Part shown: piece by piece, positions 1 to 17,471 of the stretch
Position numbering within the stretch: the stretch's first letter is position 1
Layout: each line of letters begins with the position of its first letter
Source of the DNA: Rhodovulum bhavnagarense
Lineage (GTDB): Bacteria; Pseudomonadota; Alphaproteobacteria; Rhodobacterales; Rhodobacteraceae
Length of the DNA stretch: 64,000 nt
NCBI RefSeq assembly: GCF_004343505.1
Contig: NZ_SLXU01000007.1
Location: 62,001 to 126,000, forward strand
Direction: 5' to 3'
The notes under the pieces: model-generated
Seen by the model: the letters and a program-made list of their open reading frames with translations, nothing else
Told to the model about the DNA's origin: nothing
Database searches by the model: none
Made by a program: the position numbers and the translations under genes

Positions 1-530
1 GGCACACGCCCCGATCCGGCCGTGTCGGTACCCAGCGCAAAGGCGCACAGCCCCGACGCCACCGCCACCGCCGAGCCAGATGACGATCCACCTGAGATAT
101 CGGCGGGATCGAAAACCGAACGTGGTGCGCCGTGCGGCGAGCGGGTGCCGTTCAGCCCGGTGGCGAACTGGTCGAGATTGGTCTTGCCGATCACCAGCGC
201 CCCGGCCGCACGCAGCCGCGCCACCACTGCGGCATCGGCGGCGGGCAGGTAGGCATAGGCCGGACAAGCGGCGGTGGTAGGCAGGCCGGCCACGTCGATA
301 TTGTCCTTCACGGCAAAGGGTATACCGAAAAGCGGCCGGTTCGCGGGCCCGTCCTGCATCAACCTGCGCGCCTCGGCGCGCAACGCGTCATCGGGGGTGG
401 GGGTGATGAACACTGCCGGATCGGCCAGCGCGGCGCGGCGCGCGATGACCTCTTCGACAACGTCCATCGGGGTGGCACCCGCGCCATAGGCCGCCCGCAG
501 CGCGGCAAGCGTCAGCATCCTGGGCAGCAT
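1..530 (-). CDS. atzF: Allophanate hydrolase, amidase domain (partial, 3' end outside window)
   Basis: Reading the minus strand from an ATG at 530 gives an amidase-signature protein that is still open at base 1. The triad region is visible: a lysine in PFAVKDN, then the serine-rich GGSSSGSA motif, followed by GTDTAGSGR. Amidases of this type next to a urea/guanidine-type carboxylase are allophanate hydrolases, splitting allophanate into 2 NH3 and 2 CO2. The start overlaps the carboxylase stop by one base (TGATG), so the two are translationally coupled. It is the last enzyme of the riboswitch-controlled operon. Only about 176 residues are visible, so the C-terminal domain cannot be judged. Confidence 0.9.
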   Translation of the reverse strand, partial: MLPRMLTLAALRAAYGAGATPMDVVEEVIARRAALADPAVFITPTPDDALRAEARRLMQDGPANRPLFGIPFAVKDNIDVAGLPTTAACPAYAYLPAADAAVVARLRAAGALVIGKTNLDQFATGLNGTRSPHGAPRSVFDPADISGGSSSGSAVAVASGLCAFALGTDTAGSGRV

Positions 531-3500
531 CAGTCTACCTCCATCACGGCAAGAATGTCGCCGGCGCACACCGTGCGCCCCGGCGCGGTATGAAAGCCTT
601 GCACCCGTCCGGCCACGGGGCTTTGCACGGCGATTTCCATCTTCATAGACTCGACGATGGCCACGGGTTGACCCGCCGCGACCCTTGCGCCGGGTTCGAC
701 AAGGAATTTCCAGATATTGCCCGGCACCGGGCTTTCGATCCCGATCGCGCCCTCGGGCAACGCGCCCGTGGATGCGGGGGGGGCGTCCGCGGCGGTAAAG
801 CTGTCCAGTCCCTCGGCCTTCCAGCGGTCGCGTTCCGCGTCGAAGGCGGCGCGCTGATGGGCACGAAAGGCGGCGATATCACCCGCCTGAGCCGCGAGAC
901 GTTGTTTCTCGGCGGCCCAATCGAACCGGCCCTCATCAATGCGCACCGGATAGCCACCGTGGGGAAAAGCTTCGCGGGCCTCGGCGAGTTCCGCAGGGCT
1001 GACCGGGAAAAACCGGATCACATCGAAGAAATCCAGAAGCCACGGTTTGTCACGGAACGCACCCGTGCGCCGCCAGGTGTTCCACACCTGGATCGTGCGC
1101 CCGAAAAGCTGGTAGCCGCCCGGCCCCTCCATCCCGTAGATGCACATATAGGCCCCGCCAATGCCCACCGCGTTTTCCGGGGTCCAGGTACGGGCGGGGT
1201 TGTATTTGGTCGTGACCAGCCTGTGACGCGGGTCGACCGGCGTGGCAACCGGCGCCCCCAGATAGACATCGCCCAACCCCATCACCAGGTAGCGCGCATC
1301 GAAGATCGTGCGCTGCACCGCCGCCTCGTCCTCAAGACCGTTGATGCGCCGGATGAACTCGATATTGCAGGGACACCAGGGCGCGTCGGGACGCACGAGT
1401 TCCTGGTATTTCTGCATCGCGCGTGCCGCCTCCGGGTCGTTCCAAGACAGCGGCAGATACAGGGTGCGGCTGGGCACGCTGACCGTTTCGGCAGGGGCAA
1501 GGCCCGCCTCGATCACGCGCAACTCGGCCAGCAGATCGGCCCGCGCGATGCGCGCCGGGTCGTAATGCAGTTGCAACGAGCGGATGCCGGGGGTCAGGTC
1601 GATCACCGGCAGGCCCGCCTCGGCCACCGCCCGTTGCAGCAGATGCACCCTGAGCCGGGTTTCGATATCCAGAACCATGGGCCCGTATTCCACCAACAGG
1701 TTCTCGTCGCCCTGCCGACGATAGGTCACGTTCACCCCACCCGCGCTGTGCTCGTCCAGGACCGCCGCGCCGGCGCGCGCATAGGCAGGCCCGGCCACCG
1801 GGTCGGCCGGACGCGGCGCCGGGGTAAACCGCACCCTGTCGCCGGGACGCAATTGACCGATCTTCCACATGTGCTCGGCGGCGACCACTGCGGGGCAGAC
1901 GAACCCGCCGAGGCTTGGCCCGTCGGGCCCCAGGATGATCGGCATGTCCCCGGTAAAGTCGATCGCGCCGACGGCATAGGCGTTGTCATGCAGGTTCGAG
2001 GGGTGCAACCCCGCCTCGCCGCCATCCGGGCGGGCCCATTTCGGCGCGGGGCCGATCAGGCGCACGCCGGTCCGGGCAGAGTTGAAATGCACCTCGTAGA
2101 GGGCTGAAAACAGCGTCTCGATATCCTCGGGCAAAAAGAAATCGGGTGCGCCATGGGGGCCGTAGACCACCGCGATGTCCCAGTCATGGGTCAGCACCGC
2201 CTCTTCGGGCGGTGTCGGGGCGCCGGTTGCCGCGCGGGCGAAATGAAGGACATCGCCAGTTTTCAACACGCCCGTTGCATGGCCGCCGAACTGGCCCAGC
2301 GCGAAGGTCGCGCGTGAGCCCAAAATCATCGGCGCATCGAACCCGCCCGCCACCGCCAGATAGGCCCTCTGCCCCGGCCCGGTTATCGTGCCCAGCGCCA
2401 GCACGCCCCCCGCAGGCACGTCGATCACCGGCCCGGCCACCGCCGCGCCATCCAGCGTAACCGGCAGGGCGGCCCCCGCCAGCGCGACACGCGCAGGCCC
2501 AAGAAAGCGCAAGGTGGGGCCGGTCGCCGTGATCTCGATCGCCGCGGTGTCTGGGGGGTTGCCCAGCAGACGGTTGGCATTGCGGTGGCTTTTCGAATCC
2601 ATCGGCCCCGAGGGGGGCACCCCCACATGCCACAGCCCCAGCCGTCCCGGCAGTTCCTGAAGGCTGGATTGTGCGCCGGGCGCCAGAACCTCGACCCCGT
2701 CAGGGGCATGGGAAAAATCGTTCAGCGCGGCGGTCGAAACCCGCCCCGAGGCCAGAAAGTCGGACCCCGCGATCGCACGAAGATAGCCAAGGTTGGTTTC
2801 CACCCCGGCCACGCGCGTTTCGGCCAGTGCCGCGCGCAGCGCCGCGATGGCAGAAGGGCGGTCACGGCCCGAAACGATGATCTTGGCCAGCATCGGGTCA
2901 TAATGGGGGGTGATCTCGGTCCCGGTCTCGACCCAGCCGTCGACACGGGCAGTTGCGGGGAAATGCACCTCGGTCAACCGCCCCGCCGCCGGGCGGAACT
3001 CTGCATGAGGCATCTCGGCATAAAGCCGCGCCTCGATCGCGGCGTCCCGCTGTTCGGGCAGGGGGACCTGGGTCGGGTCTTCGCCGGCGGCCTGGCGGAT
3101 CATCCATTCGACAAGGTCAATGCCAAGAACCGCCTCGGTCACCGGGTGTTCGACCTGAAGCCGCGTGTTGACCTCAAGGAAATAGAAGGCCCCGCGCGCC
3201 GGATCATAGATGAATTCCACCGTGCCCGCAGAGGCATAGCGAACCGAGGCACAAAGATCGGCCGCGGCGCGGTGCAACGCCGCGCGCACCCCCTCGGGCA
3301 GGTCAGGGGCGGGGGTTTCCTCGATCACCTTTTGATTGCGTCGTTGCAGCGAACAATCCCGTTCGCCCAGTGCCACGACACGGCCCCGACCATTGCCGAA
3401 AACCTGCACCTCGACATGACGCGCGGGCGAAACGAAGCGTTCCAGGTAGACGCGCGCATCGCCGAAACTGGCCGCCGCCATGCGCGCGACCGAGGCAAAG

Positions 3501-4036
3501 GCCGCGCGCAGCGCCGCCTCGTCGGGGCAAAGCCGCATCCCTATGCCGCCTCCGCCCGCGGTACTTTTCAACATCACCGGGTAACCGATGCGCGCAGCCT
3601 CGGCAGCGGCGATGCCGGCATCGTCCAGCAACCCCGAGCCCGGCAATAGCGGCACACCCGCGGCCTTTGCCAGGTCGCGCGCGACGTGTTTCAATCCGAA
3701 GGCGCGGATATGGTCCGGCCGGGGGCCGATAAAGGCAATCCCGGCCTCGGCCAGGCGGTCGGCAAAGACGATGCTTTCGGACAGGAATCCATAACCCGGA
3801 TGCACCGCCTCGGCGCCGGTGGCACGGCAGGCGGCAATCACCGCGTCGATATCCAGATAACTTTGCGCCGCGGGCGCGGGGCCCAGCCGCACCGCCTGAT
3901 CGGCATCGCGCACATGGGGGGCAAATCGGTCGGCATCTGAATAAACGGCGACCGAGGCAATCCCCATCTTGCGCAGCGTCGCGATGATCCGCACCGCGAT
4001 CTCGCCGCGGTTGGCCACGAGAACCTTGCTGAACAT
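530..4036 (-). CDS. Biotin-dependent urea/guanidine carboxylase
   Basis: An 1168-residue multidomain carboxylase. The biotin carboxylase (ATP-grasp) domain occupies roughly residues 1-450, beginning MFSKVLVANRGEIAVRI and carrying the glycine loop AGGGGIGMRL. A KipA/AHS2-like part (about 480-790) and a KipI/AHS1-like part (about 800-1010) form the carboxyltransferase. The C-terminal biotinyl domain has VESMKMEIAV, with the biotinylated Lys near residue 1132. Databases usually call such proteins urea carboxylase. Here a guanidine-I riboswitch and the DUF1989 pair lie upstream, so guanidine is the likelier substrate, giving carboxyguanidine. It begins 4 bases after the preceding DUF1989 gene. 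Substrate choice is inferred from context; the enzyme class is certain. Confidence 0.95.
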   Translation of the reverse strand: MFSKVLVANRGEIAVRIIATLRKMGIASVAVYSDADRFAPHVRDADQAVRLGPAPAAQSYLDIDAVIAACRATGAEAVHPGYGFLSESIVFADRLAEAGIAFIGPRPDHIRAFGLKHVARDLAKAAGVPLLPGSGLLDDAGIAAAEAARIGYPVMLKSTAGGGGIGMRLCPDEAALRAAFASVARMAAASFGDARVYLERFVSPARHVEVQVFGNGRGRVVALGERDCSLQRRNQKVIEETPAPDLPEGVRAALHRAAADLCASVRYASAGTVEFIYDPARGAFYFLEVNTRLQVEHPVTEAVLGIDLVEWMIRQAAGEDPTQVPLPEQRDAAIEARLYAEMPHAEFRPAAGRLTEVHFPATARVDGWVETGTEITPHYDPMLAKIIVSGRDRPSAIAALRAALAETRVAGVETNLGYLRAIAGSDFLASGRVSTAALNDFSHAPDGVEVLAPGAQSSLQELPGRLGLWHVGVPPSGPMDSKSHRNANRLLGNPPDTAAIEITATGPTLRFLGPARVALAGAALPVTLDGAAVAGPVIDVPAGGVLALGTITGPGQRAYLAVAGGFDAPMILGSRATFALGQFGGHATGVLKTGDVLHFARAATGAPTPPEEAVLTHDWDIAVVYGPHGAPDFFLPEDIETLFSALYEVHFNSARTGVRLIGPAPKWARPDGGEAGLHPSNLHDNAYAVGAIDFTGDMPIILGPDGPSLGGFVCPAVVAAEHMWKIGQLRPGDRVRFTPAPRPADPVAGPAYARAGAAVLDEHSAGGVNVTYRRQGDENLLVEYGPMVLDIETRLRVHLLQRAVAEAGLPVIDLTPGIRSLQLHYDPARIARADLLAELRVIEAGLAPAETVSVPSRTLYLPLSWNDPEAARAMQKYQELVRPDAPWCPCNIEFIRRINGLEDEAAVQRTIFDARYLVMGLGDVYLGAPVATPVDPRHRLVTTKYNPARTWTPENAVGIGGAYMCIYGMEGPGGYQLFGRTIQVWNTWRRTGAFRDKPWLLDFFDVIRFFPVSPAELAEAREAFPHGGYPVRIDEGRFDWAAEKQRLAAQAGDIAAFRAHQRAAFDAERDRWKAEGLDSFTAADAPPASTGALPEGAIGIESPVPGNIWKFLVEPGARVAAGQPVAIVESMKMEIAVQSPVAGRVQGFHTAPGRTVCAGDILAVMEVD

Positions 4037-4040
4037 GCGC

Positions 4041-4637
4041 CTACCCCCGGATGATGACGCGGACAGGCGACGGGTCGAACCCGTTGCAGGGGTTGTTGAC
4101 CTGCGGGCAGTTCGAGATCACGCACAGCACATCCATCTCGGCCAGCAGATCGACGTGATCGCCGGGGCTGGATATGCCGTCATCGATCGTCATGGCACCA
4201 TCGGGGCTGATCGGCACGTTCATGAAGAAATTGATATTGGGAACGATATCGCGCTTGCTCATGCCGTGGCGCGCCAGTTCGAGGATGAAATTCTCGCGGC
4301 AGGCATGCAGATAGCGGGTGTCATGACCGAAACGGACCGTGTTCGATTCACATGAACAACACCCCGCAGAGGTATCGTGCCGCCCCGCGCTATCGGCGGT
4401 TAAGATCAGCATCACCCGTCCCTCGGACGACATCAGCCGCGTTCCCGTGGTGATGTAGGCCGCGCCCTGCGCGCGCATCGTGTCCTGGGCCGAATAGCGT
4501 TCGGAAAAATCATGCGCGTTGTAGAACAGCGTATCGACGGCCTGCTGGCCATGGCTGTCGATGATGCGAATGGTCTGTCCTGCCCGAACAATGCCGGACC
4601 AGGGCTTTTCGGCGGGGATATCAAAAACGTGTTCCAT
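4041..4637 (-). CDS. DUF1989 protein, urea carboxylase-associated protein 2 (likely carboxyguanidine deiminase subunit)
   Basis: A 198-residue protein of the DUF1989/UAAP2 family, starting MEHVFDIPAEKPWSG after a strong AGGAGGG ribosome site. It carries a Cys-rich stretch (GCCSCESNTVRFG, about residues 91-104) and NCPQVNNPCNG near the C-terminus, both typical of the family. In characterised guanidine pathways a heterodimer of two DUF1989 proteins (CgdAB) deiminates carboxyguanidine to allophanate. This gene and its neighbour at 4650-5450 match that pair. It lies 12 bases downstream of its partner and 4 bases upstream of the carboxylase. I cannot assign it to CgdA or CgdB from sequence alone. 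Confidence 0.9.
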   Translation of the reverse strand: MEHVFDIPAEKPWSGIVRAGQTIRIIDSHGQQAVDTLFYNAHDFSERYSAQDTMRAQGAAYITTGTRLMSSEGRVMLILTADSAGRHDTSAGCCSCESNTVRFGHDTRYLHACRENFILELARHGMSKRDIVPNINFFMNVPISPDGAMTIDDGISSPGDHVDLLAEMDVLCVISNCPQVNNPCNGFDPSPVRVIIRG

Positions 4638-4649
4638 GAAATTCCCTCC

Positions 4650-5450
4650 TCAGGCGCGGGCGGTGTTCTGAAAGGCGCGGATCGCCTCGGCGGTGGCGGT
4701 GCGGCACAGATCGTCCGCGGCCACCGGCACCGCGGCGAGGTGCAGCACGCGAACGGCGGGCACAATCCCCTGGTCGGGGTCGAGCGGGTGGCGGTTGTTC
4801 GACAGCGCCAGCATCACGTCCTGCTCGGCGCGCAACTCCACCCAGTCATCCCCCGACAGAAGCGCGCCGTTCCAGAAGAACCGCCCCGCGGCATCGACCC
4901 GCACCGGCGCGAAGAAGGTCAAGAGCGCGTGCAGGTCGCGCTTGTCGAGACCCAGCTTGGCTGCGGCCAGCACCATGTTGTCGCGCGTGTTGCGCGCGTG
5001 CGGCGTGCCCGGTTCACTGGCGGGCGCGCCGCCAGTCAACGCGTCATGGGCACCCGAACTGTCCTCGGCGATCGAGAAAAGAACCCGCCCCATATCCGAC
5101 AGGATCACCCGGCCCTTGCGCAGGTCGGTCGTCCACTGGACCTTGACCGTGTCGGGCAGGTTCATCCGCTCGGCCGTGTCGGCGGCGGACCAGGCCGCCA
5201 GCGAAACGCTGCCGCCCAGCCCCCCGGCCAGGATGCGCAGCCCCTCGCCCGCCGCCAACCGCGTGGTCCAGTACCAGCCGCCAGGAACCGTTTCGTTCAC
5301 CAACACCCGGCCGGGTTCAGGCGGGGGCGCCGGACGCGGGCTGGACCCCGGCAGCGCCCTTGGGGCGAATTCCAGTCCCTTCCTCTGGTGTTCCTCATAG
5401 CGGGCGCGATCGGCGGCGATGGCCTCAGGGGTGCGGGAAACGTGTTGCAT
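4650..5450 (-). CDS. DUF1989 protein, urea carboxylase-associated protein 1 (likely carboxyguanidine deiminase subunit)
   Basis: A 266-residue protein of the longer DUF1989/UAAP1 type, beginning MQHVSRTPEAIAADRARYEEHQ. An N-terminal extension of roughly 80 residues precedes a domain homologous to the 198-residue neighbour; the segments LRAEQDVMLALSNNRHPLDP here and LLAEMDVLCVISNCPQVNNP there correspond. The start lies 25 bases inside the end of the ABC ATPase gene, indicating coupling. Together the pair should convert carboxyguanidine to allophanate. The family is recognised with confidence; the reaction is taken from characterised guanidine operons of the same layout. Confidence 0.9.
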   Translation of the reverse strand: MQHVSRTPEAIAADRARYEEHQRKGLEFAPRALPGSSPRPAPPPEPGRVLVNETVPGGWYWTTRLAAGEGLRILAGGLGGSVSLAAWSAADTAERMNLPDTVKVQWTTDLRKGRVILSDMGRVLFSIAEDSSGAHDALTGGAPASEPGTPHARNTRDNMVLAAAKLGLDKRDLHALLTFFAPVRVDAAGRFFWNGALLSGDDWVELRAEQDVMLALSNNRHPLDPDQGIVPAVRVLHLAAVPVAADDLCRTATAEAIRAFQNTARA

Positions 5451-6282
5451 GCTCTGATGCTCCGGTCTGCCGGGTCGTCCCGAAAGAGTGCCCCAAAGAG
5501 GTCAGGTCGTCCTGACCGGGCAGGATATCGGCATCGTAGATCGTGGTGCGCCCCGCGATCCGCGGCGGCCAGACGTCGATGTCGCGGCTCAGCGTCGCGC
5601 CATAGCGAAGGCGTTCCTCGGGCCGGTCGCGCAGGCGTTCAAAGGCGACGATGCGGGTGGCCAGCGTGAAGGCCTCGCGCAGGTCGTGTGTGACCATGAC
5701 AACCGTCATCGGCACCTCGTTCCAGAGCCGCTTCATCAGCTTGTGGATATCGGCGCGGATGCCGGGATCCAGCGCGCCGAAAGGTTCATCCAGCAACAGC
5801 ACGCGGGGTTTCATCATCAGCGCCTGCGCCAGCGCCAGCCGCTGCTGCATCCCGCCCGACAACTGGGCGGGATACTTGTTTTCGTTACCTGCAAGCCCGA
5901 CCTCGGCCAGCATCGACCGGGCCTCCTCGGCCAGCGCCCGCCGGGCGGCACCAAAACGACGGCCCAGCAAGCGCGCGCCGCGCAATTCGGGGCCTATCAT
6001 CACGTTTCCGAGCACCGTCAGGTGCGGAAAGACCGAATACCGCTGATAGACCACGCCGCGATCGGGGCCCGGCTCGGGCGGCAGGGCCGCGCCATCCAGC
6101 AAGATGCGCCCGCGCGTGGGCTTTTCCTGCCCCAGCAGCATCCGCAGGAAGGTCGTCTTGCCACAGCCCGATGGCCCGACCAAGGCAACAAAGGCGCGGG
6201 TCTCAACCGACAGGTTGACGCTTTCCAGAACGACCTGGTCGCCGTATTCCTTCCAGACATTCTCGATGACGATCGCGGTCAT
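5425..6282 (-). CDS. ABC transporter ATP-binding protein (guanidine-type importer)
   Basis: A 285-residue ATPase of the nitrate/sulfonate/taurine (NitT/TauT) importer class. It has Walker A GPSGCGKTT, the signature LSGGMQQRLALAQAL and Walker B VLLLDEPFGALDP, followed by a family-typical C-terminal extension of about 70 residues. I chose the ATG at 6282 rather than the longer frame because it overlaps the permease stop as ATGA and is followed directly by TAIVIENVWKEYG. It energises uptake of the operon's substrate at the inner membrane. Confidence 0.93.
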   Translation of the reverse strand: MTAIVIENVWKEYGDQVVLESVNLSVETRAFVALVGPSGCGKTTFLRMLLGQEKPTRGRILLDGAALPPEPGPDRGVVYQRYSVFPHLTVLGNVMIGPELRGARLLGRRFGAARRALAEEARSMLAEVGLAGNENKYPAQLSGGMQQRLALAQALMMKPRVLLLDEPFGALDPGIRADIHKLMKRLWNEVPMTVVMVTHDLREAFTLATRIVAFERLRDRPEERLRYGATLSRDIDVWPPRIAGRTTIYDADILPGQDDLTSLGHSFGTTRQTGASEHATRFPHP

Positions 6283-7097
6283 CTGCGGCCCTCCATCCCC
6301 CACCAGGGGAAGATCAGCCGCCGCAAACCGCCCAGGCCCAGATCCATCGCCACGGCCAGCAGGGTAATCCAGGCGACATAGGGAAAGATGATATCCATCG
6401 ACAGATAGCGGCGTACCAGGAAGATCCGATAGCCCAGCCCCGCATCGGCCGAGATCGCCTCGGCCGCGATCAGGAACAGGAAAGCCGGACCCAGTTGCAG
6501 CCGCAGGCCATCGATCAACCGTGGCATTGCCTGCGGCAGAACCACACGGAGCGCGATCAGCCAGGTCGAGGCTGACAGGGTTTCGGCCTTGATGATCATC
6601 TCGCGCGGCAGGGATGCGACGGTCAGCGACAGATCGCGGATCAGGAACGGCGTCACCCCGATCACGATCAGCACGATCTTGGAGGTCTCACCAAGCCCCA
6701 GCGCGATGAACAGGATCGGCAACAGGGCCAGCGGCGGCACCATCGAGACAAAGGCGATAACCGGCGCCAGCAGCGCGCGCACCATCGGCAGAACCCCGAT
6801 GGCAAGCCCCGCGATCAGCGTCAGCACCGCCGAAATGCCAAGCCCCGCCCACAGACGCCCCAGGCTTGCCCATGTATCGGACCACAGCAGATACGCGCCG
6901 GTACGCCGGTCGGGGGTAAAGGCCATCGTCTCGATCGCCCGCGCAAACGAGGATAGCGCCGGCAGCAGCTTGTCGCCGGGGTTGTCGGCCAGCCGGGTTG
7001 CCGAGGCGGCAAGATAGACCAGCACGATCGCCAGGAACGGCAGGCTGCCCAGCACCAGCCGCGCCGCACGCCCCGGATGGCGGTTGATAAGCCGCAT
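6279..7097 (-). CDS. ABC transporter permease (guanidine-type importer)
   Basis: A 272-residue inner-membrane permease with about six hydrophobic segments and a BPD_transp_1-type EAA loop near AETLSASTWLIALRVVLPQA. It belongs to the TauC/SsuC class, which matches the neighbouring ATPase and binding protein. The ATG at 7097 has a GGGACGG sequence about seven bases upstream; a GTG two codons earlier (7103) is possible. It lies 15 bases after the binding-protein stop and overlaps the ATPase start by four bases. Confidence 0.92.
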   Translation of the reverse strand: MRLINRHPGRAARLVLGSLPFLAIVLVYLAASATRLADNPGDKLLPALSSFARAIETMAFTPDRRTGAYLLWSDTWASLGRLWAGLGISAVLTLIAGLAIGVLPMVRALLAPVIAFVSMVPPLALLPILFIALGLGETSKIVLIVIGVTPFLIRDLSLTVASLPREMIIKAETLSASTWLIALRVVLPQAMPRLIDGLRLQLGPAFLFLIAAEAISADAGLGYRIFLVRRYLSMDIIFPYVAWITLLAVAMDLGLGGLRRLIFPWWGMEGRR

Positions 7098-7112
7098 CGG
7101 CACCGTCCCGGA

Positions 7113-8180
7113 TCAGAGCGCGCCGTCGGCGGCAAGCTGCATGTAGGTTGCGCTAAAGCGGAACTTCACGTTGTTCGCATCGCCCATCACCGTCGCATCG
7201 GGCAGTTCGATGCCGATGACATCCGCCGACGGCGCACCCGCCCCCAGCAAACCCTTGTCGAACAGGAAAGTCCGGATATGGTCCATCGTCGTGCCGAGAT
7301 CGGGCGATAGCGTAAAGGCCACCGCCTCGGCCGGGTCGGCGAACAGGCGGGTCGCGGCAAGCTGCGCCTCGTAACCGGCCTGGTCGGTACCCGAGGCCGC
7401 GCCCATCGCCGCGCGTGCCGCCGCCCCTTCGGGCGTATCGGCAACCATCAACGCGGCGGTTTCGTACCAGATCCCCGCCAGCGCCTTGCCGAAATCGGGA
7501 TTGTCGGTCAGCACCTCGGTATTGGCCACCATCAGGTCAATGATTTCACCGGGAATGTCGCTGCTATCGAAGACAAGGTTCGCCCCCGGCAGCGCCGCGA
7601 TTTCCGAAACGATCGGGTTCCACGTCACCATCGCGGTCACATCACGGGTCTGGAAGGCGGCCACCATGTCGGGATCGGCGGTATTGATCACCTTGACGTC
7701 GCGCTCGCTCAGCCCGACGCTGTCAAGCGCGCGGGCCAGCAGGTAATGCGACACCGAGAATTCGACGAGGTTGACGTCGCGCCCTGCAATATCGCCCAGG
7801 TTGGCACTGTCTTTCAGGATCACCGCGTCGTTGCCCGCCGAAAAATCACCCACGATCACCGCGGTGGTGTCCACGCCCCCCGCCGCCGGGATCGAAAGCC
7901 CGTCCATGTTGGTCAGCGTCACCGCGTCATAGGCACCGGCGGTATACTGGTTGATGGACTCGATATAGTCGTTGAACTGGGTCACCTCGATCTCGATGCC
8001 ATACTTGTCGGCCCATTTGTCCACGATGCCGGCCTCGGCGGCATAGCCCCAGGGCATCCAACCCACGTAGATCGACCAACCGACCTTGAACTCGGATTTC
8101 GGTTCGGCGGAGACGGGCATTGCCGACAGCGCACCAAGTGCGACGAGTGATCCCACAACCGAAGAGAGGCGCAACGACAT
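7113..8180 (-). CDS. ABC transporter substrate-binding protein, riboswitch-controlled
   Basis: A 355-residue periplasmic binding protein of the NitT/TauT (COG0715-like) class. It begins MSLRLSSVVGSLVALGAL and has a signal peptide ending near MPVSAEP. An open frame extends 21 codons upstream, but the ATG at 8180 follows an AGGA ribosome site and a typical leader peptide, and the longer frame would run into the riboswitch. It is the first gene of the operon and directly downstream of the guanidine-I riboswitch, so guanidine or guanidinium is the expected ligand. Homologues are often labelled urea carboxylase-related ABC transporter. Confidence 0.93.
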   Translation of the reverse strand: MSLRLSSVVGSLVALGALSAMPVSAEPKSEFKVGWSIYVGWMPWGYAAEAGIVDKWADKYGIEIEVTQFNDYIESINQYTAGAYDAVTLTNMDGLSIPAAGGVDTTAVIVGDFSAGNDAVILKDSANLGDIAGRDVNLVEFSVSHYLLARALDSVGLSERDVKVINTADPDMVAAFQTRDVTAMVTWNPIVSEIAALPGANLVFDSSDIPGEIIDLMVANTEVLTDNPDFGKALAGIWYETAALMVADTPEGAAARAAMGAASGTDQAGYEAQLAATRLFADPAEAVAFTLSPDLGTTMDHIRTFLFDKGLLGAGAPSADVIGIELPDATVMGDANNVKFRFSATYMQLAADGAL

Positions 8181-8504
8181 GATGGTTCCTTTCCTTACAA
8201 TCTGGGGAAAGACGACCACCGTGCCGCCAATCCCTTGGCTCAACGAGGTCTCCCGGGTTTTTGTCCCGCCGTGCTCCGGCGGGGATGTCTCTCCCGCCGG
8301 CGGCAGCTCTCGGACCAGACACCCCCGAAAAGGCCGGAACCCTAGCCGCCATACTCATATGCGACATCTACGGGGCGCGTGCCGTTGCGCAAACCCTTGC
8401 ACATGGGGGTGCGAGGGGACCGCCTTTGAACGCATATAATTTGGGCAGTACGCTGGACGAATGACCTCATCGAGGGCGGTTTGCATCGCTGGCAACGGGT
8501 CGGG
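8181..8504. other. Gene-free leader region of the guanidine operon
   Basis: This 324-base stretch between the regulator at 8505 and the binding-protein gene holds the guanidine-I riboswitch (8248-8350), about 70 bases of expression platform, and about 150 bases upstream that must carry the promoter. A TTGCGC on the minus strand (8392-8387) is a weak -35 candidate; I see no convincing -10. A plus-strand TATAAT at 8435-8440 has no matching -35. Confidence 0.7.
8248..8350 (-). promoter_or_regulatory. Guanidine-I riboswitch (ykkC RNA)
   Basis: Read on the minus strand, this leader contains the conserved blocks of the ykkC/guanidine-I aptamer in order: GCTAGGGTTCCGG, then GTCTGGTCCGAGAGCT, then a GC-rich hairpin, then CACGGCGGGACAAAAAC and CCCGGGAGA. 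These are the hallmark P1a/P1b and ligand-pocket segments. It ends about 70 bases before the binding-protein ATG. Guanidine binding should turn the operon on. Edges are approximate (a few bases). Confidence 0.93.
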
Positions 8505-8960
8505 TCACGCGGCGCGTTCGTCCTTGGACGAACCCATCACGATATAGGACGTGATCGCGTTCACGTGGGATTGCGTGCCCAGAACCTCGGTGTGAAAGCG
8601 CTTGTACCCGGCCAGATCGGCGCTTTCGACGCGCAGCAGGTATTCGAAGGCCCCGGCGATGTTGTGGCATTCGACGACTTCGGGCGCGACCGCCATGGCG
8701 CGCTCGAACCCCTCCTGCGTGGCCTTGGTGTGCGACGACAGGCCGACCATGACATAGACCGCAAAGCCGCGGCCCATGCGCTCGGGGTCGGTGACGACCC
8801 GGTAGCCGCGGATCACGCCGGTCCGTTCCAGGTCCTGCACGCGCCTGAGGCAGGCGGAGGGCGACAGGCCGATCCGCTCGGCCAGCGCCACGTTGCTAAT
8901 CCGGCCGTCGCGCCAAAGCTCGCGCAATATTTTCAGGTCTGTGGCATCCATGGCGATCAT
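8505..8960 (-). CDS. Lrp/AsnC family transcriptional regulator
   Basis: A 151-residue regulator. An N-terminal winged helix (ATDLKILRELWRDGRISN, then AERIGLSPSACLRRVQDLE) is followed by an AsnC ligand-binding (RAM) domain with GAFEYLLRVESADLAGY. The frame extends further upstream, but the family begins just before this point; ATGs at 8960 and 8951 are both possible. It is divergent from the LysE exporter with about 96 bases between starts, the usual arrangement for a regulator that controls an amino-acid exporter. The ligand is unknown. Confidence 0.92.
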   Translation of the reverse strand: MIAMDATDLKILRELWRDGRISNVALAERIGLSPSACLRRVQDLERTGVIRGYRVVTDPERMGRGFAVYVMVGLSSHTKATQEGFERAMAVAPEVVECHNIAGAFEYLLRVESADLAGYKRFHTEVLGTQSHVNAITSYIVMGSSKDERAA

Positions 8961-9056
8961 TCGTTGTGCAATTGAGCCGCGCGGCGGCATCTTGGGCGAA
9001 ACATTGCGGCGATCACGGTCTAATGTTGCAGGGTTCCGATCAAGGAGGCAAGTCCC

Positions 9057-9656
9057 GTGAGTTTCGCTGTGCTGACCGCCCTTCTGGGCTTTGCCTTCGT
9101 GTCGACCGTCACGCCGGGGCCCAACAACCTGATGCTCATGGCCTCGGGCGCGAATTTCGGCTTTCGCCGGACGCTGCCGCACATGCTGGGCATCCTCGGG
9201 GGCGTGACGGTGATGGCGCTGCTGGTGGGGGCGGGGCTGATGGCGGTGTTCGACGCCGTGCCTGCGCTGACCGTCATGCTGAAGGTCCTATGCGTCGGCT
9301 ACCTGCTGTGGCTGGCGGCCCGGATCGCCATGGCGGCGCCGCCGGAGGACCGGGCGGCGGACAGCCGGCCGATGACCTTTCGTCAGGCCGCGCTGTTCCA
9401 GTGGGTGAACCCCAAGGCCTGGGCCATGTGCCTGTCCGCGGTCACGCTCTATGCCCCCGACCGGTCGCTTCTGTCGGTCGCCATCGTGGCCGGCGCCTTC
9501 GCCCTGGTCTGCTTGCCGGCGATCTCGGTCTGGACCTGGCTCGGGACGGCGGTCCGCCAGTGGCTGTCGAACGCCGCGCGGCTTCGGGCGTTCAACGTGA
9601 CCATGGCGATCCTGCTGGTGGCCTCGCTCTATCCCGTTCTCGGTCTCGGCGCATGA
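9057..9656 (+). CDS. LysE family amino-acid exporter
   Basis: A 199-residue inner-membrane protein with about six hydrophobic segments and the LysE/RhtB signature TVTPGPNNLMLMASG near residues 17-31. It starts with GTG after a near-perfect AAGGAGG ribosome site at the expected spacing. It probably exports an amino acid or related metabolite under the divergent Lrp-type regulator. It converges with the RND operon, the stops being about 31 bases apart. Confidence 0.92.
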   Translation: MSFAVLTALLGFAFVSTVTPGPNNLMLMASGANFGFRRTLPHMLGILGGVTVMALLVGAGLMAVFDAVPALTVMLKVLCVGYLLWLAARIAMAAPPEDRAADSRPMTFRQAALFQWVNPKAWAMCLSAVTLYAPDRSLLSVAIVAGAFALVCLPAISVWTWLGTAVRQWLSNAARLRAFNVTMAILLVASLYPVLGLGA

Positions 9657-9687: not shown

Positions 9688-12600
9688 TCACGACGCATCA
9701 GGCATGGTCTGGCGGTCGTTATTTTTTTCCGAGCCGCTTAGATACCCTGTCATGGATCGCAAATCGCCAAGGATCGCGAAGAACGCAGGCAACACGATCA
9801 GAACAAGCAGGGTCGCCCCGAGCAGCCCGAAGACCACCGAGATCACCAGCGGTTTCAGCGTCTGGGCCTGCGTGCTGGTCTCGGCCAAAAGCGGCGCCAT
9901 CCCCATCACCGTGGTCGAGACCGAGATCAGGATCGGGCGCACGCGGTCGCGGCTGGCCTTTCCGGCGGCGCGCGCAAGGTCCATGCCCTCGGCCGCGCGG
10001 GCGTTGATCACCTGAAGCAGCAGGATCGCGTTGTTGACGACGATCCCCGCCAGCGAGGCCGCGCCCAGTATCGAGGGCATCGACAGGTTGTAGCCCATCG
10101 CGACATGGCCCCAGATCACCCCGATGAAGGCCAGCGGGATGGTCAACATCACGATGATCGGCTCGACATAGCTGCGGAATTGCAGCGACAGGATCAGGTA
10201 GACCCCCACCAGCCCGATGACGAAGCCGCGAATGATGGAACCGACCGTTTCGGCGGAATTGGCGCTTTGCCCGCCGATCTCGACGCCGAGGCCGGGGGTG
10301 TCCGCGACAAGGTCCGGCAGGACCCCCTCGCGCAGCGCCTTCACGATGGCGTCGGCATTGGCGATGCGGGTGTCGACATCGGCCTGAACGGTCAGCGTGC
10401 GCACCCCGTCCACATGGGTGATGCGGGCCCAGCCGCGGGCCTCGGTGAGATCGGCGGCCATGGTCAGCGGCACGGCCGAGCCATCGGGCAGCGTCACGGT
10501 GAAGTCGGTCAGGTCGTCCCGGCCGTTGCGGTCCGCGAGGGCCTGTTCCAGTTCGATCTCGTGGGCGATATCGCCCTGCTGCACGTCGGCGATGATCGTG
10601 CCGAGGAAGGCCGCGCGCACCTGCCCCGCGACATCGGCCGCGGTCAGTCCCAGCGCCGCCGCCCCCTCCTTGAACCGCAGGCGCAGTTCGGGCGGGCCGG
10701 GGCGCAGGTCGTGGGTGGCGTTGTAGACGCCGCGATAGGCCGCCACCTCGGCCAGCAGCCTGTCGCCAGCCACACGCAGGCGGTCGAGGTCGTCATGGAA
10801 CAGGCGGATCTCGATGGCGATGCCCTGCGGCCCGATCCCGGGCTCGGTCAGGACGATCTCGGTCACACCGGGCACGGCGCCGATCTCGGCCTGCCAGCGG
10901 GCGGTGATCTCGTCCAGCGTCGTCGCCCGGATCTCGGCGCCCAGCAGGTCGGCGCTGACGGTCGCCACATGGGGCCCGCCCTCGCCCGCCGTGGCGTTGA
11001 GGTTGAACCGCGTCTGGACCGAACGAACCAGCGCCGCGTCGCCCGGCTGGTCGGGCGCAAGCGCCGCATCGGTGCGCATCAGCGCCGCGATGACGTGATC
11101 GGCGACCGCCTCGGTGCGCATGAGCGGCGTGCCCTGCGGCATCAGGATACGCGCCTGCAACACGTCGCCGTCGATGGCCGGTATCGCCTCGCGCGGCAAG
11201 AGCCCCCCGCGCACGGCCCCCACGCTGACGATCATCAGCGCCAGAACGAGCCCCGCCACAGGATAGCGCCACCTGATCGCCAGATCGGCGGCCCGGCCCA
11301 CACCCTTTTCCCGCAGCGCCTCGAACCCCCGGTCAAAGCCGCGGCGCAGGCGCGAGGGCGGGCATTCGGCCGCCTTCAGCCCGTGGCTTAGGTGGTGGGG
11401 AAGCACCCAGAACGCCTCGATCAGGCTGGCGGCAAGGGCGGCGATCAGCACCAGCGGCAGGACTTCGAGCACGGCACCCAGTTCCCCCGCGAGGAACGAC
11501 AGCGGTCCGAACACCGCGACCGTCGTGGCAAATGACGACAGCACGCCCGGCAGAACCGCAAGGGTGCCCGCGACCGCGGCCTCCAGCCGCGACCGGCCGT
11601 CGGTGGCATGGCTAACGATGCTGTCCACGATCACGATGGAATCGTCCATCACGATCCCGATGGCCATCAACAGCGCGACCAGCGTGATCATGTTCAGCGA
11701 CAGCCCCAGCAGTGCCATCGCCACGAAGGCCCCGAGGAAGGCCACCGGAAGCCCGAACGCCGCCCAGATCGCGAACCGGGGGCGGAAGAACAGGCTCATC
11801 ACCGCCAGCACGAGGACAAGACCCACCGCGCCGTTCCTGACCAGCATCTGCAACCGGTCGCGCACGATCGAGGTCACGTCCTGCACGATCTCAAGGCGCA
11901 GGCTGTCCGGCAGGGCGGCACTCTCGGCCTCGACCACGGCGGCGACGGCGTCGAGTACGCGCAGCGCATCGGCCTCAAGCGCCTTGTGCACCTCGAGGAA
12001 CGCGGCGCGCTGCCTGTCGAGGCGGGCGCGTTCCTCTTCGGGGGTGTAGGTCTCGACGATCTCGGCGATGTCGCCGAGGCGCAGCGTTCCGCCCTCGGGC
12101 GTGGCCAGCACGGTCAACTCGGCCAGATCGGCGATGGAGCGGCGTTCGTCGGCAAAGCGCAGGCGCAGATCGCGGCCGGGGGTTTCGAGGCTGCCAAGCG
12201 GCAGATCGACGCTTTGCGCCCCCAAGATGCCGGCCAGCCCGGCGGCGGTCAGCCCGTGCCGGGCAAGGACCGCGCGCGGTACCGTGATGCGGAATTGCCG
12301 CTCGCCAAAACCCGACAGGGCCACCCGCGCCACGCCCGGCAGCGCGGATAACCGGCTGCGCAACTCCTCGGCATAGCGGTCCAGCGCCACGGGCGGCAGA
12401 TCGCCCGCCACGGCGACCGAGGTCACGGCATCGGTCCGGTGCAATTCACGCACGATGGGCGGATCGGCGCGGGCGGGCAGGTCGTCGATGGCCGCCACCT
12501 CGGTGCGGATGTCGTTGACGAAACGCAGGGTGTCCCCCCCCGGCGCCATCGTCGCCACCGCCCGGGCGCGGTTCTCGGCGGCGGTGCAGGTCAGCTCCTC

Positions 12601-12825
12601 CAGCCCCTCGACGGGGTCGAGCGCGTCCCACAGGCGGCGGCAGATCGCATCCTCGACCTCTTCGGCCGAGGCGCCGCGATAGACGACCGAGATCTCGGAT
12701 TCGACGGGCCGGAAATCGGGAAAGGTCTCGCGCTTGAGCGTCGGCGCCGCGAATGCACCTGCCGCCAGCAGCAGGATCAAAAACAGGTTGCCTGCGGTCG
12801 GATGCGCGGCGAACCAGCGGATCAT
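9688..12825 (-). CDS. RND efflux transporter permease (AcrB/MdtB-like)
   Basis: A 1045-residue inner-membrane RND pump, close to the usual ~1030-1050 length. The N-terminal helix (MIRWFAAHPTAGNLFLILLL), two large periplasmic loops and two sets of membrane segments are present. The proton-relay aspartates sit in MAIGIVMDDSIVIVDSI (around residue 400). It overlaps the adaptor gene by ATGA (12822-12825). No outer-membrane channel gene is adjacent, so a TolC supplied elsewhere is expected. Substrate specificity cannot be read from the sequence. Confidence 0.95.
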   Translation of the reverse strand: MIRWFAAHPTAGNLFLILLLAAGAFAAPTLKRETFPDFRPVESEISVVYRGASAEEVEDAICRRLWDALDPVEGLEELTCTAAENRARAVATMAPGGDTLRFVNDIRTEVAAIDDLPARADPPIVRELHRTDAVTSVAVAGDLPPVALDRYAEELRSRLSALPGVARVALSGFGERQFRITVPRAVLARHGLTAAGLAGILGAQSVDLPLGSLETPGRDLRLRFADERRSIADLAELTVLATPEGGTLRLGDIAEIVETYTPEEERARLDRQRAAFLEVHKALEADALRVLDAVAAVVEAESAALPDSLRLEIVQDVTSIVRDRLQMLVRNGAVGLVLVLAVMSLFFRPRFAIWAAFGLPVAFLGAFVAMALLGLSLNMITLVALLMAIGIVMDDSIVIVDSIVSHATDGRSRLEAAVAGTLAVLPGVLSSFATTVAVFGPLSFLAGELGAVLEVLPLVLIAALAASLIEAFWVLPHHLSHGLKAAECPPSRLRRGFDRGFEALREKGVGRAADLAIRWRYPVAGLVLALMIVSVGAVRGGLLPREAIPAIDGDVLQARILMPQGTPLMRTEAVADHVIAALMRTDAALAPDQPGDAALVRSVQTRFNLNATAGEGGPHVATVSADLLGAEIRATTLDEITARWQAEIGAVPGVTEIVLTEPGIGPQGIAIEIRLFHDDLDRLRVAGDRLLAEVAAYRGVYNATHDLRPGPPELRLRFKEGAAALGLTAADVAGQVRAAFLGTIIADVQQGDIAHEIELEQALADRNGRDDLTDFTVTLPDGSAVPLTMAADLTEARGWARITHVDGVRTLTVQADVDTRIANADAIVKALREGVLPDLVADTPGLGVEIGGQSANSAETVGSIIRGFVIGLVGVYLILSLQFRSYVEPIIVMLTIPLAFIGVIWGHVAMGYNLSMPSILGAASLAGIVVNNAILLLQVINARAAEGMDLARAAGKASRDRVRPILISVSTTVMGMAPLLAETSTQAQTLKPLVISVVFGLLGATLLVLIVLPAFFAILGDLRSMTGYLSGSEKNNDRQTMPDAS

Positions 12826-14132
12826 TGCCCGGCCTCCACCGGGATCAGCCGCATGCCCGGTATCGCGGGAACAAGATCATCCAGAACCACCTCGTCACCG
12901 GGCGCAAGCCCGTCCGCGATGATCGCCTGCCCGTCCTGGCGGAAGGCGACCGTCACCTCGCGCAGCGCCAGCCGGCCCTCGGCGTCGCGCAGATAAACGA
13001 CGCCCCCGGCCTGCACCGCGGGGTCGGGAATGGCGATCTGCGCCGCGCCCGACGCGCCGGTCAGCACGACCTCGACATACATGTTGGGAACCAGCGCCAG
13101 CCGGTCCGGGGGATTGGCCCCGGCATAGGGATCGGCGACCTCGATCGTGACCGGAACCGTCCGGGTCCGCGGGTCGAGCGCGTTGCCCACCCGTGTCACC
13201 TGTCCTGACCAGACCTGCCCCGGCGCGCCCACCAGCCGGACCTCGGCGGCGATGGCGGCCCGAAAGTCGGCGCGTTCCAGCAGCGCCAGCCCCCCGGTCC
13301 CATCCGCCCGCGCGCCGCCCAGCAGCCGCGGAAAGCTGTCCAGCGGAATCCGCGCCGTCACCTCGGCCGCGGCGACCCCGTCGCCCTGCAACAGCGGCTG
13401 GCCCATGGCGGCGAACTGGTCCTGCTCGACCGCGACCTCGGCAACCCGCAGATCGAAAGGCGCGGTGATCTCGGTCTTTTCCAGGTCGCGCCGGGCGCGC
13501 GCCAGCACCGCATCGGCACGAGCCATTTGCGCGCTGAGCCGGGCCCGGCGGGCGGGGATCAACTCTAGCGCATTCGACAATTCCTGCACACCGCGCTCGA
13601 TCTGGAGCAGGGTGCGTTCCTGCGCGTCCGCCTGCGCATCGGGCGCATTGCCCTGATCGACCAGCGCGCGCACGCGCCGGAACTCCGCCTCGGCCAGGCG
13701 CAGGCGGCGGCGCTCGATATCGAGCAACCGGCCCGTGTTCGTCGCCTCGGCCTCGAGCTGCGCCAGATCGGCCCGCAGCACCGCGCCGTCGGCCTCGGCC
13801 TGGGCAAGCGCCAGCTCGTAGGCCGTCGGGTCGAGGCGCAGCACGACCTGCCCGGCGCGGATCAGGGTGCCGGTCTCAAGCTCGGGACTGCGCCAGACGA
13901 CGCTGCCGGCCACCTCGGCGACCGCGGCCCATGTGCGGGACGGGGTGACGGTGCCATAGCCGCGCGCGACTGGCCGGATGGGTCGTTCGGCCACGATCAA
14001 CGTGCGCACCGCCGCGCTGCGTTCCGCCATGGCGCTGCGCGCGGGCGGTTCGGCACGCGAGAGCAGACCCGCCGCAAGGACCACACCCAAGGCGACGGGA
14101 ACGAGAAAGCCGATAAAGGGTTTCAGTCGCAT
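12822..14132 (-). CDS. RND efflux periplasmic adaptor (HlyD/MFP family)
   Basis: A 436-residue membrane-fusion protein: one N-terminal membrane anchor (FIGFLVPVALGVVLAAGLLS), a barrel-sandwich lipoyl-like half (GTLIRAGQVVLRLDPTAYE), a long coiled-coil hairpin about residues 115-215 rich in Ala, Glu and Arg, then beta-barrel and membrane-proximal domains. It links the RND pump to an outer-membrane channel. It overlaps tetR by 10 bases and the pump by 4, forming a tetR-adaptor-pump operon. Confidence 0.94.
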   Translation of the reverse strand: MRLKPFIGFLVPVALGVVLAAGLLSRAEPPARSAMAERSAAVRTLIVAERPIRPVARGYGTVTPSRTWAAVAEVAGSVVWRSPELETGTLIRAGQVVLRLDPTAYELALAQAEADGAVLRADLAQLEAEATNTGRLLDIERRRLRLAEAEFRRVRALVDQGNAPDAQADAQERTLLQIERGVQELSNALELIPARRARLSAQMARADAVLARARRDLEKTEITAPFDLRVAEVAVEQDQFAAMGQPLLQGDGVAAAEVTARIPLDSFPRLLGGARADGTGGLALLERADFRAAIAAEVRLVGAPGQVWSGQVTRVGNALDPRTRTVPVTIEVADPYAGANPPDRLALVPNMYVEVVLTGASGAAQIAIPDPAVQAGGVVYLRDAEGRLALREVTVAFRQDGQAIIADGLAPGDEVVLDDLVPAIPGMRLIPVEAGQ

Positions 14133-14743
14133 GAGACCTCTTGGGGTCGACTGGGCGCCATCAGGCGCAGTTGAAGGCTCACCATGCGATCGCCTTCGGT
14201 CACCAGATCAAAGCCCCGGCCTGACAGCGACCAGCGGAGCACGAGACCCTGCAAGATCCCTAGCAACAGGGCCGCGATGTCATCCGGTTGCAGGTCGTCC
14301 CGCAGGTTCCCGGCGGCCCTGGACTGGCGCGCGAGGGCGACCATCCGATCCATCAAGCCAGCCATGAGACGCAGAACGATCGGCCTGACCGAATTCTCTG
14401 CGACGTGGCGACCAGGCGCCATGACCAACGCTGGAACGGCTGGCGTCTGTTCGATCAGCCTCAGTTGGGCAAGGCACAACATGCGCAGCCTGTCACAAGG
14501 CCCGCCGCCGATCTCGGCGGCTTTCGCCCAGGCCCGCTGCGCGCGGTGCTCGACCTCCTCCATCACGCTGCGCCAGATGTCATCCTTGGTCGGGTAATGG
14601 CGAAACAGAGCGCCCTGGCTGACGCCGACCTTGGCCGCGATGCGCAAGGTCGACAGATGTTCGGGCGCTGTCGAGGCAAGCAGGTCAAGCACCGCCTCGA
14701 CGATGTCGGCCCGACGCAGATCGGCGCTTTTTCGGGCTGTCAC
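14123..14743 (-). CDS. TetR/AcrR family repressor of the RND operon
   Basis: A 206-residue regulator with an N-terminal TetR helix-turn-helix (LRIAAKVGVSQGALFRHYPTKDDIW, about residues 33-58, quoted here in part) and a ligand-binding C-terminal region. It is the first gene of the operon with the adaptor and pump. A 20-base inverted repeat lies 13 bases upstream of its ATG, fitting autorepression. The inducing drug or metabolite is unknown. Confidence 0.93.
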   Translation of the reverse strand: MTARKSADLRRADIVEAVLDLLASTAPEHLSTLRIAAKVGVSQGALFRHYPTKDDIWRSVMEEVEHRAQRAWAKAAEIGGGPCDRLRMLCLAQLRLIEQTPAVPALVMAPGRHVAENSVRPIVLRLMAGLMDRMVALARQSRAAGNLRDDLQPDDIAALLLGILQGLVLRWSLSGRGFDLVTEGDRMVSLQLRLMAPSRPQEVSCD

Positions 14744-16280: not shown

Positions 16281-17471
16281 ATGGCCACAAGTTCCGATCT
16301 TCGTCGCACCTGGACCGGGCCCGCATTCCTCAGCCGGGGCTTCCGGCCATTCTTCCTGCTGGGCAGCCTCTGGGCGGCGGGCGCCATGGCCGCATGGATC
16401 GCGATGCTGGCCGGCGGGCTTGCCTTGCCCACGACACTGGACCCGGTCAGTTGGCATGCGCATGCCTTCCTTTTCGGTTATCTCGGCGCCGTAACCGCGG
16501 GGTTCCTGCTGACGGCCGTACCGAACTGGACTGGCCGGCTACCGTTGCGGGGCTGGCCGCTTTTGGGGCTGGTCCTGCTGTGGGGCACGGGGCGGCTGGC
16601 GGTTTCCACCTCGGCACTCTGGCCTGCCGGAATCGCGGCGCTGGTCGATCTTGCCTTTCCGGTCGCGCTGGCGGCCGTCACCCTGCGCGAGATCGTTTCA
16701 GGCCGCAACTGGCGCAACCTTCCGGTCTGGGGGCTGTTGGTTCTGATGACACTGGGCCAGGCGCTGTTCCACCTGGAGACCGCGCGCGGCGGCTATGCTG
16801 CGGGCGGGACGGGGCTAAGGGTGGCGCTGGCGGCGGCGATCATGATGATCGCGCTGATCGGCGGCCGCGTGGTGCCCGGCTTTACCCGCAACTGGCTGGC
16901 AAAACGGGACAGCATACAGTTACCGAGGCCATTCGGCATCCTTGACCGGGCGGCGCTGGCGGTTACGGGCATCGCCCTTATGGCCTGGACCGCAGCGCCC
17001 GACCACGCCCTTTCGGCGATCCTGTGTCTTGCGGCAGGCGTGGCGAACCTGATCCGCCAGGGCCGCTGGGCCGGGCACCGGACCCTGGCCGAGCCGTTGG
17101 TCTGGGTGCTGCACCTTTCGTATCTGTTCATCCCCGCCGGGTTCCTGGCGGTGGCGCTGGCGTCATTGATCCCCGGTCTGACCGGGGCGACCGCCGCACA
17201 GCATGTCTGGATGGCGGGTGCCGTGGGCATGATGACGCTGGCGATCATGACCCGCGCCAGCCTGGGCCATTCCGGCCGCCCGTTGTCCGCGGGCCCCAAG
17301 GTTGCCTTGCTTTACCTCGCGCTTCTTGTCGCCATTATCGCCCGGTTTGCCGAGGGCATGGTTTTCGCAGGCTGGCTCCTTGACCTTGCCGGCGCCGCAT
17401 GGATCGCGGCCTTCCTCGGCTTCGCGATGGTCTACTGGCCGGTTCTCGCGCGGCCCAAAGGGGCGGGGTGA
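16281..17471 (+). CDS. nnrS: NnrS family heme-copper membrane protein
   Basis: A 396-residue protein with about twelve hydrophobic segments and the NnrS hallmarks: FLSRGFRPFFLLGSLWA at the N-terminus, WHAHAFLFGYLGAVTAGFLL with two His (around residue 60), and RVVPGFTRNWL. NnrS contains heme and copper and relieves nitric-oxide stress in denitrifiers and pathogens. It is divergent from nsrR and preceded by an NsrR-like box. It converges with the diheme cytochrome gene, stops being 12 bases apart. Confidence 0.93.
   Translation: MATSSDLRRTWTGPAFLSRGFRPFFLLGSLWAAGAMAAWIAMLAGGLALPTTLDPVSWHAHAFLFGYLGAVTAGFLLTAVPNWTGRLPLRGWPLLGLVLLWGTGRLAVSTSALWPAGIAALVDLAFPVALAAVTLREIVSGRNWRNLPVWGLLVLMTLGQALFHLETARGGYAAGGTGLRVALAAAIMMIALIGGRVVPGFTRNWLAKRDSIQLPRPFGILDRAALAVTGIALMAWTAAPDHALSAILCLAAGVANLIRQGRWAGHRTLAEPLVWVLHLSYLFIPAGFLAVALASLIPGLTGATAAQHVWMAGAVGMMTLAIMTRASLGHSGRPLSAGPKVALLYLALLVAIIARFAEGMVFAGWLLDLAGAAWIAAFLGFAMVYWPVLARPKGAG

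Follow-up and report, generated by a model that had tools for sequence, protein, structure and literature searches.

A guanidine-II aptamer within the importer ATPase gene of a predicted guanidine-utilisation operon in Rhodovulum bhavnagarense and other Alphaproteobacteria

The stretch of DNA analysed here (the window) comprises 64,000 nucleotides of the 3.15-Mb genome of Rhodovulum bhavnagarense (NZ_SLXU01000007.1, positions 62,001–126,000). Its minus strand carries an operon which opens with the genes of an ABC importer: a substrate-binding protein (SBP, 7113–8180) [TIGR03427, 538.7 bits, cut-off 333.9], a permease (6279–7103) [PF00528, 59.3 bits] and an ATPase (5425–6303) [PF00005, 113.1 bits], the frame and stop of the last being read directly. 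For the SBP, reading of the sequence favours the ATG at 8180 as the start, the in-frame TTG at 8243 being less likely. There follow genes for two adjacent DUF1989 proteins, UAAP1 (4650–5450) [TIGR03425, 216.3 bits, cut-off 205.95] and UAAP2 (4041–4637) [TIGR03424, 325 bits, cut-off 284.7]; both exceed their curated cut-offs and are the predicted subunits of a two-subunit carboxyguanidine deiminase. The next gene (530–4036) specifies a biotin-dependent carboxylase [TIGR02712, 1742.9 bits, cut-off 1303.85], the N-terminal part of which is a biotin carboxylase. Positions 1–569 hold the N-terminal part of an allophanate hydrolase gene which runs beyond the window edge and is complete in the neighbouring part of the contig (L306:5723–7570, minus strand; 615 amino acids) [TIGR02713, 780 bits]. 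The frames and family matches thus reproduce the gene order given by the initial annotation, that is, an ABC transporter, two DUF1989 proteins, a biotin carboxylase and allophanate hydrolase.

Directly upstream of the operon leader, and on the same strand, lies a gene for an Lrp/AsnC-type regulator (8505–9182). Farther out are genes for an RND efflux pump with a HlyD-type adaptor and a TetR-type regulator (9688–14743, minus strand) and for an NnrS protein (16281–17471, plus strand) [PF05940, 355.4 bits].

The leader contains a guanidine-I (ykkC) aptamer at 8248–8356 on the minus strand [RF00442, 87.2 bits, gathering score 63, E 3.2e-14]. Such an aptamer had been proposed here from four short sequence blocks, with a covariance-model search as the suggested check; cmscan against Rfam gave this match above the gathering score, and its full-length alignment (model 1–107) takes in all four blocks. 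Nowhere else in the genome is there a guanidine-I match at E≤1. An intrinsic terminator was considered as the output step and rejected, none being found between the aptamer and the first gene; the leader fold is unremarkable (z −1.24).

A second aptamer, absent from the initial annotation, is located at 5470–5518 on the minus strand, wholly within the coding sequence of the ATPase gene. It is a guanidine-II (mini-ykkC) aptamer [RF01068, 39.8 bits, gathering score 32, E 1.9e-4 in the window search]. The ATPase stop falls 26 nt past the UAAP1 start, so that the 3′ end of the ATPase gene both overlaps UAAP1 by 26 nt and encodes the aptamer, whose codons in the ATPase frame are PGQDDLTSLGHSFGTTR. 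In the predicted fold the first hairpin, P1, pairs 5517–5511 with 5506–5500 around the loop 5510–5507, and the second, P2, pairs 5483–5479 with 5474–5470 around the loop 5478–5475. Both loops are ACGA, in keeping with the two ACGR-loop hairpins of the class. According to the accessible text of the structural paper (PMC5486947), a guanidine-II aptamer should also lie near the ribosome-binding site of a guanidine gene; this one ends at 5470, 6 nt before the Shine-Dalgarno (SD) sequence GGAG (5463–5460) and 19 nt before the UAAP1 ATG (5450), the GGAG itself being 9 nt from the ATG. It is the sole RF01068 match above the cut-off in the genome. Weak matches elsewhere (≤19 bits) were treated as chance.

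The carboxylase itself indicates which substrate the operon serves. As set out in the accessible part of a report in Nature (2024, PMC11410670), Asp at both of the positions corresponding to 1330 and 1584 of the K. lactis enzyme is required to call a guanidine carboxylase. In the alignment with that enzyme (5i8i), Asp693 of the window protein stands opposite Asn1330, a position which is Asn in urea carboxylase, and Asp923 falls on Asp1584, as counted from the 3va7 alignment (offset 593). Among the 103 UAAP1 loci described below the first Asp is present in 101/101 and the second in 100/100 of the readable sequences. As a control we searched the phylum and obtained 39 carboxylase matches in 32 of 299 genomes, of which 35 loci were compared, the other four being three loci already collected and the window. 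Guanidine-I, guanidine-II or both accompany 25 of the 26 Asp-type carboxylases (the exception is L298); none of the nine Asn-type loci has a guanidine riboswitch, nor does any have UAAP or ABC neighbours.

One could take the operon as annotated, with a urea carboxylase and an allophanate hydrolase acting on urea. The curated family names say so, and the genome of the window yielded no match to the urease alpha-subunit, so that the cell might profit from a urea route; the guanidine carboxylase pathway, for its part, does not need urease. Against urea stand the Asp in place of Asn at the position of K. lactis 1330, the presence of two guanidine aptamers, two deiminase-family subunits which would be superfluous for urea, and the nine Asn-type loci, all without such neighbours. 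On the strength of the Asp signature and of both aptamers we set the urea reading aside as highly improbable. The guanidine carboxylase/carboxyguanidine deiminase pathway put forward in the initial annotation is supported by the same signature and by the 25/26 versus 0/9 split in riboswitches, and its warning that the ‘urea’ labels would mislead was sound: in NCBIfam the carboxylase goes under ‘urea carboxylase’ and the SBP under ‘putative urea ABC transporter’, yet the Asp signature is there. Judged from its sequence, the operon almost certainly serves the use of guanidine as a nitrogen source.

In a search of the family, guanidine-II was found in 65 of 295 genomes, in 41 of them above the cut-off. 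Only four of the 295 have a UAAP1 like that of the window, and three of these carry the aptamer at the same place; the fourth, L139, has guanidine-I, while guanidine-II was not found there at E≤1. Among named genomes we found 80 UAAP1 loci, of which that of Rhodovulum strictum is the nearest (87%). Guanidine-I is present in 78 of them, and the other two are contigs which begin just before UAAP1. A covariance model, R2, built from 25 unrelated efflux-gene sites only, scores the window aptamer at 47.3 bits and places guanidine-II immediately ahead of UAAP1 in 69 of the 80 named loci (E<0.01). Because a model from unrelated sites recovers the aptamer so regularly, we rejected a chance match. Of the remaining 11 loci, five show the two-hairpin pattern with a weak or shifted R2 match, four show neither and two are cut by contig ends. 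Second copies of guanidine-I were also encountered: the phylum loci L274, L287 and L300 have two such aptamers in or near the operon, each preceding a separate SBP-like gene in L274 and L287, and in Rhizobium sp. BK376 another lies about 9 kb downstream of UAAP1 (L210:13294–13418, plus strand; 76.1 bits).

Pooling the 80 named loci with 20 from a class search, L076, L079 and the window gave 103 UAAP1 loci, not all of them distinct (L076 and L168, at least, are the same contig); since the loci are related, the counts which follow are not independent. Two ACGR hairpins lie between the ATPase and UAAP1 in 88 of the 103. The other 15 comprise eight without the pattern (of which L223 nevertheless matches R2), three without an adjacent ATPase and four without an ATPase on the contig. 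The aptamer occurs at this junction in two orders, Rhodobacterales and Hyphomicrobiales. One record, L161, is titled as a metagenome-assembled genome of Exiguobacterium profundum; it carries a locus 74% identical to the UAAP1 of the window, so the title or the binning is probably wrong.

In 51 of the 88 loci the aptamer lies entirely in the ATPase frame, in 26 P1 is inside and the stop falls in the linker, and in 11 the aptamer follows the stop. P1 is therefore coding in 77 of 88, and in 74 of these 77 it is read in the same phase. The exceptions are L148, L151 and L152, three loci of one family; there the embedded aptamer is read in another phase, a hint of more than one origin for the overlap. 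Where coding loci have the WPP motif of the ATPase, as 73 do, it lies 48, 49, 55 or 61 nt from the P1 loop; in six non-coding loci the distance is 55–138 nt. The ATPase stops gather close to the start of UAAP1: among the 51 loci with the aptamer wholly inside, for example, 22 have the stop at +4 and nine at +26. Among many matching plasmid records we opened four which are annotated, and in all four the annotated ATPase gene covers the aptamer, overlapping UAAP1 by 20 nt in a Thioclava record and by 4 nt in three Rhizobium records. Embedding is nonetheless dispensable, since the aptamer lies beyond the ATPase stop in 11 loci and the pattern scan found none in eight.

Paired positions in the two hairpins covary. 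In 47 sequences (the window and 46 unique loci with the aptamer inside the ATPase frame) 97.3% of P1/P2 cells are paired, and 47 cells carry changes on both sides versus 14.0 in shuffled alignments, a value reached by none of 500 shuffles. Two of the five summary measures are weaker: 29 of 500 shuffles attained the number of pairs with double-sided changes, which is five, and 22 of 500 attained the count of pair types. Double-sided changes affect four of the seven P1 pairs and only one of the five P2 pairs.

The predicted minimum-energy fold of the window strand forms P1, P2 and, in addition, an accessory outer helix around P1, in which 5522–5518 (TGCCC) pairs with 5493–5489 (GGGCA) (span 5489–5522, minus strand). 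For 68 unique loci out of 86 we scored the best helix that the linker can form with the 11 nt preceding P1; the mean was 12.9, compared with 11.7 after the partners were swapped between loci (maximum 12.6; 0/500). The helix occurs as GCCC/GGGC, GACC/GGTC, GCGC/GCGC-type and GCCTC/GAGGC variants and is reduced to three base pairs or fewer in some loci, for example L164, L171, L172 and L177. No such helix was seen at 55 efflux-gene sites, those of the 65 non-UAAP1 sites which have two plain GGACGRCC cores, where the score was 9.87 versus 10.09 after swapping and was reached by 387 of 500 swaps.

How this RNA might control UAAP1 is suggested by the same structural paper (PMC5486947), in the accessible text of which P2 is proposed to preclude a hairpin that would mask the ribosome-binding site. 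Reading of the window strand and a comparison of pairings point to a possible anti-SD hairpin of this kind, CCGG-CAGA-CCGG, at 5460–5473 on the minus strand (5473–5470 with 5465–5462), which overlaps the GGAG at 5463–5460 and excludes P2; it is not the minimum-energy fold. Complementarity between P2 and the SD region is slightly better within loci than after swapping (8.65 versus 8.04; 0/500) in 57 unique loci, these remaining after duplicates were merged and L141, L144 and L157 left out of the 88. In many loci the two can form only 2–3 base pairs, and in the window the minimum-energy fold has P1 and P2 in place even without ligand, with no pairing of P2 to the SD. The guanidine-II element is likely an ON switch by analogy; because the P2/SD pairing is often so short and the free fold favours P2, that assignment draws mostly on the known behaviour of the class.

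Taken together, an operon with two guanidine sensors, the second of which gates UAAP1 from within the ATPase gene, is the explanation we consider probable. The ABC importer would bring in guanidine, which the carboxylase, the UAAP1–UAAP2 deiminase and allophanate hydrolase would convert to ammonia. The guanidine-I aptamer in the leader would switch expression of the operon on, and the guanidine-II aptamer, within the last codons of the ATPase, would gate translation of UAAP1 and hence access to the enzyme-coding half of the operon. In the ligand-free state the SD region of UAAP1 could be paired with the 3′ strand of P2; with guanidine bound, P1 and P2 would form and dock, and the UAAP1 site would be free. 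Since the ATPase frame runs through the aptamer, ribosomes elongating along this gene would have to unfold it and would finish at or near the UAAP1 start, so that sensing and translational coupling might act at one place. Any such effect of ribosome passage, and with it any regulatory importance of the embedding, is our inference.

It could also be that the overlap is incidental, a GC-rich and stop-poor aptamer simply being read through to the next stop, in which case the operon would have two riboswitches and the embedding no regulatory consequence; we give this an even chance. Among 41 unique loci with the aptamer inside, the two alternative frames likewise run through it without a stop in 30 and 38, which means that the open ATPase frame alone is no proof of selection. 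All three frames are used to read P2 (in 28, 17 and six of the 51 loci), as a result of which the peptide it encodes is not conserved. We accordingly dropped selection at the peptide level on the aptamer-encoded tail as unsupported. The position of the stop also varies, and in the 11 loci noted above the ATPase ends before the aptamer. An incidental overlap sits less well with the constant phase of P1 in 74 of 77 coding loci and its fixed spacings from the WPP motif, nor would it lead one to expect the stops to cluster near the UAAP1 start, as translational coupling would predict. A different possibility is that the embedded guanidine-II is a relic, kept unfolded by the ribosomes which cross it while translating the ATPase, and that regulation is left to guanidine-I alone. 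Guanidine-I does stand alone in four Asp-type loci of the phylum, as in L139; the persistence of guanidine-II at the same place in Rhodobacterales and Hyphomicrobiales and the compensatory changes in P1 and the accessory helix, however, make a relic unlikely.

In its enzymes, importer and guanidine-I aptamer, to which the comparison was confined, the operon resembles the pathway of Pseudomonas syringae DC3000, as far as the accessible text describes it (PMC11410670): an Asp-signature carboxylase, a heteromeric deiminase, allophanate hydrolase and an ABC importer, with no enzyme difference detected. The guanidine reading corrects the labels on many ‘urea’ operons, a correction already published, as is the occurrence of guanidine-I and guanidine-II in one locus (PMC12186494, in the part available). 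The latter source, a review, describes, for Raoultella terrigena, Klebsiella michiganensis and Erwinia rhapontici, guanidine-I before the importer and deiminase genes and guanidine-II before the carboxylase and hydrolase genes. The window shares with it a guanidine-I aptamer ahead of the importer and deiminase genes, a guanidine-II aptamer deeper in the operon, and carboxylase and allophanate hydrolase genes downstream. Unlike in that layout, as described there, guanidine-II precedes UAAP1 and lies inside the ATPase coding sequence, so that it would govern deiminase, carboxylase and hydrolase alike; no guanidine-II aptamer was found directly before the carboxylase in the window, nor any other match above the cut-off in the genome. 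Among the 35 phylum loci guanidine-II stands before the carboxylase in 18 and before UAAP1 in three. Because L288 is the only one of those 18 with an upstream frame open for at least 190 codons across the aptamer, embedding looks special to the alphaproteobacterial layout.

The window aptamer also resembles guanidine-II before SMR efflux genes in having two ACGR-loop hairpins near a ribosome-binding site, and one model finds both, but loci of the window type differ from the 55 efflux-gene sites in the accessory helix around P1. We know of no SMR efflux leader with guanidine-II that is coding. A full-text literature search, with most subscription papers, the original biochemical ones included, outside its reach and hence not proof of absence, returned no mention of a guanidine-II aptamer within coding sequence. 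We tentatively suggest, as an idea which may well prove wrong, that Alphaproteobacteria possess a translated riboswitch, an importer-ATPase-coding guanidine-II with an added outer helix around P1, in which ribosomes and guanidine compete for one RNA and enzyme synthesis is tied both to the ligand and to ongoing synthesis of the importer. If true, a natural riboswitch translated as part of the upstream gene and kept at one junction in two orders would be new, and it would offer a direct test system for the way in which a ligand and elongating ribosomes make use of a single small RNA, the ligand being cheap and well known. Riboswitches inside genes would escape scans limited to non-coding gaps.

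The family sample held 68 guanidine-II sites in all, 22 of which precede SMR genes. Another 33 lie just before a PACE-type efflux gene, for example L080:8001–8043 and L077:8001–8049 (minus strand), the one such gene tested matching PF05232 at 154.6 bits; PACE was not mentioned in the accessible text of the guanidine papers checked for it, nor apparent in the literature listing. In L059 and L067 sub-threshold guanidine-II-like matches (30.7 and 27.9 bits) stand before genes with an EF-Tu-like start and are probably chance hairpins.
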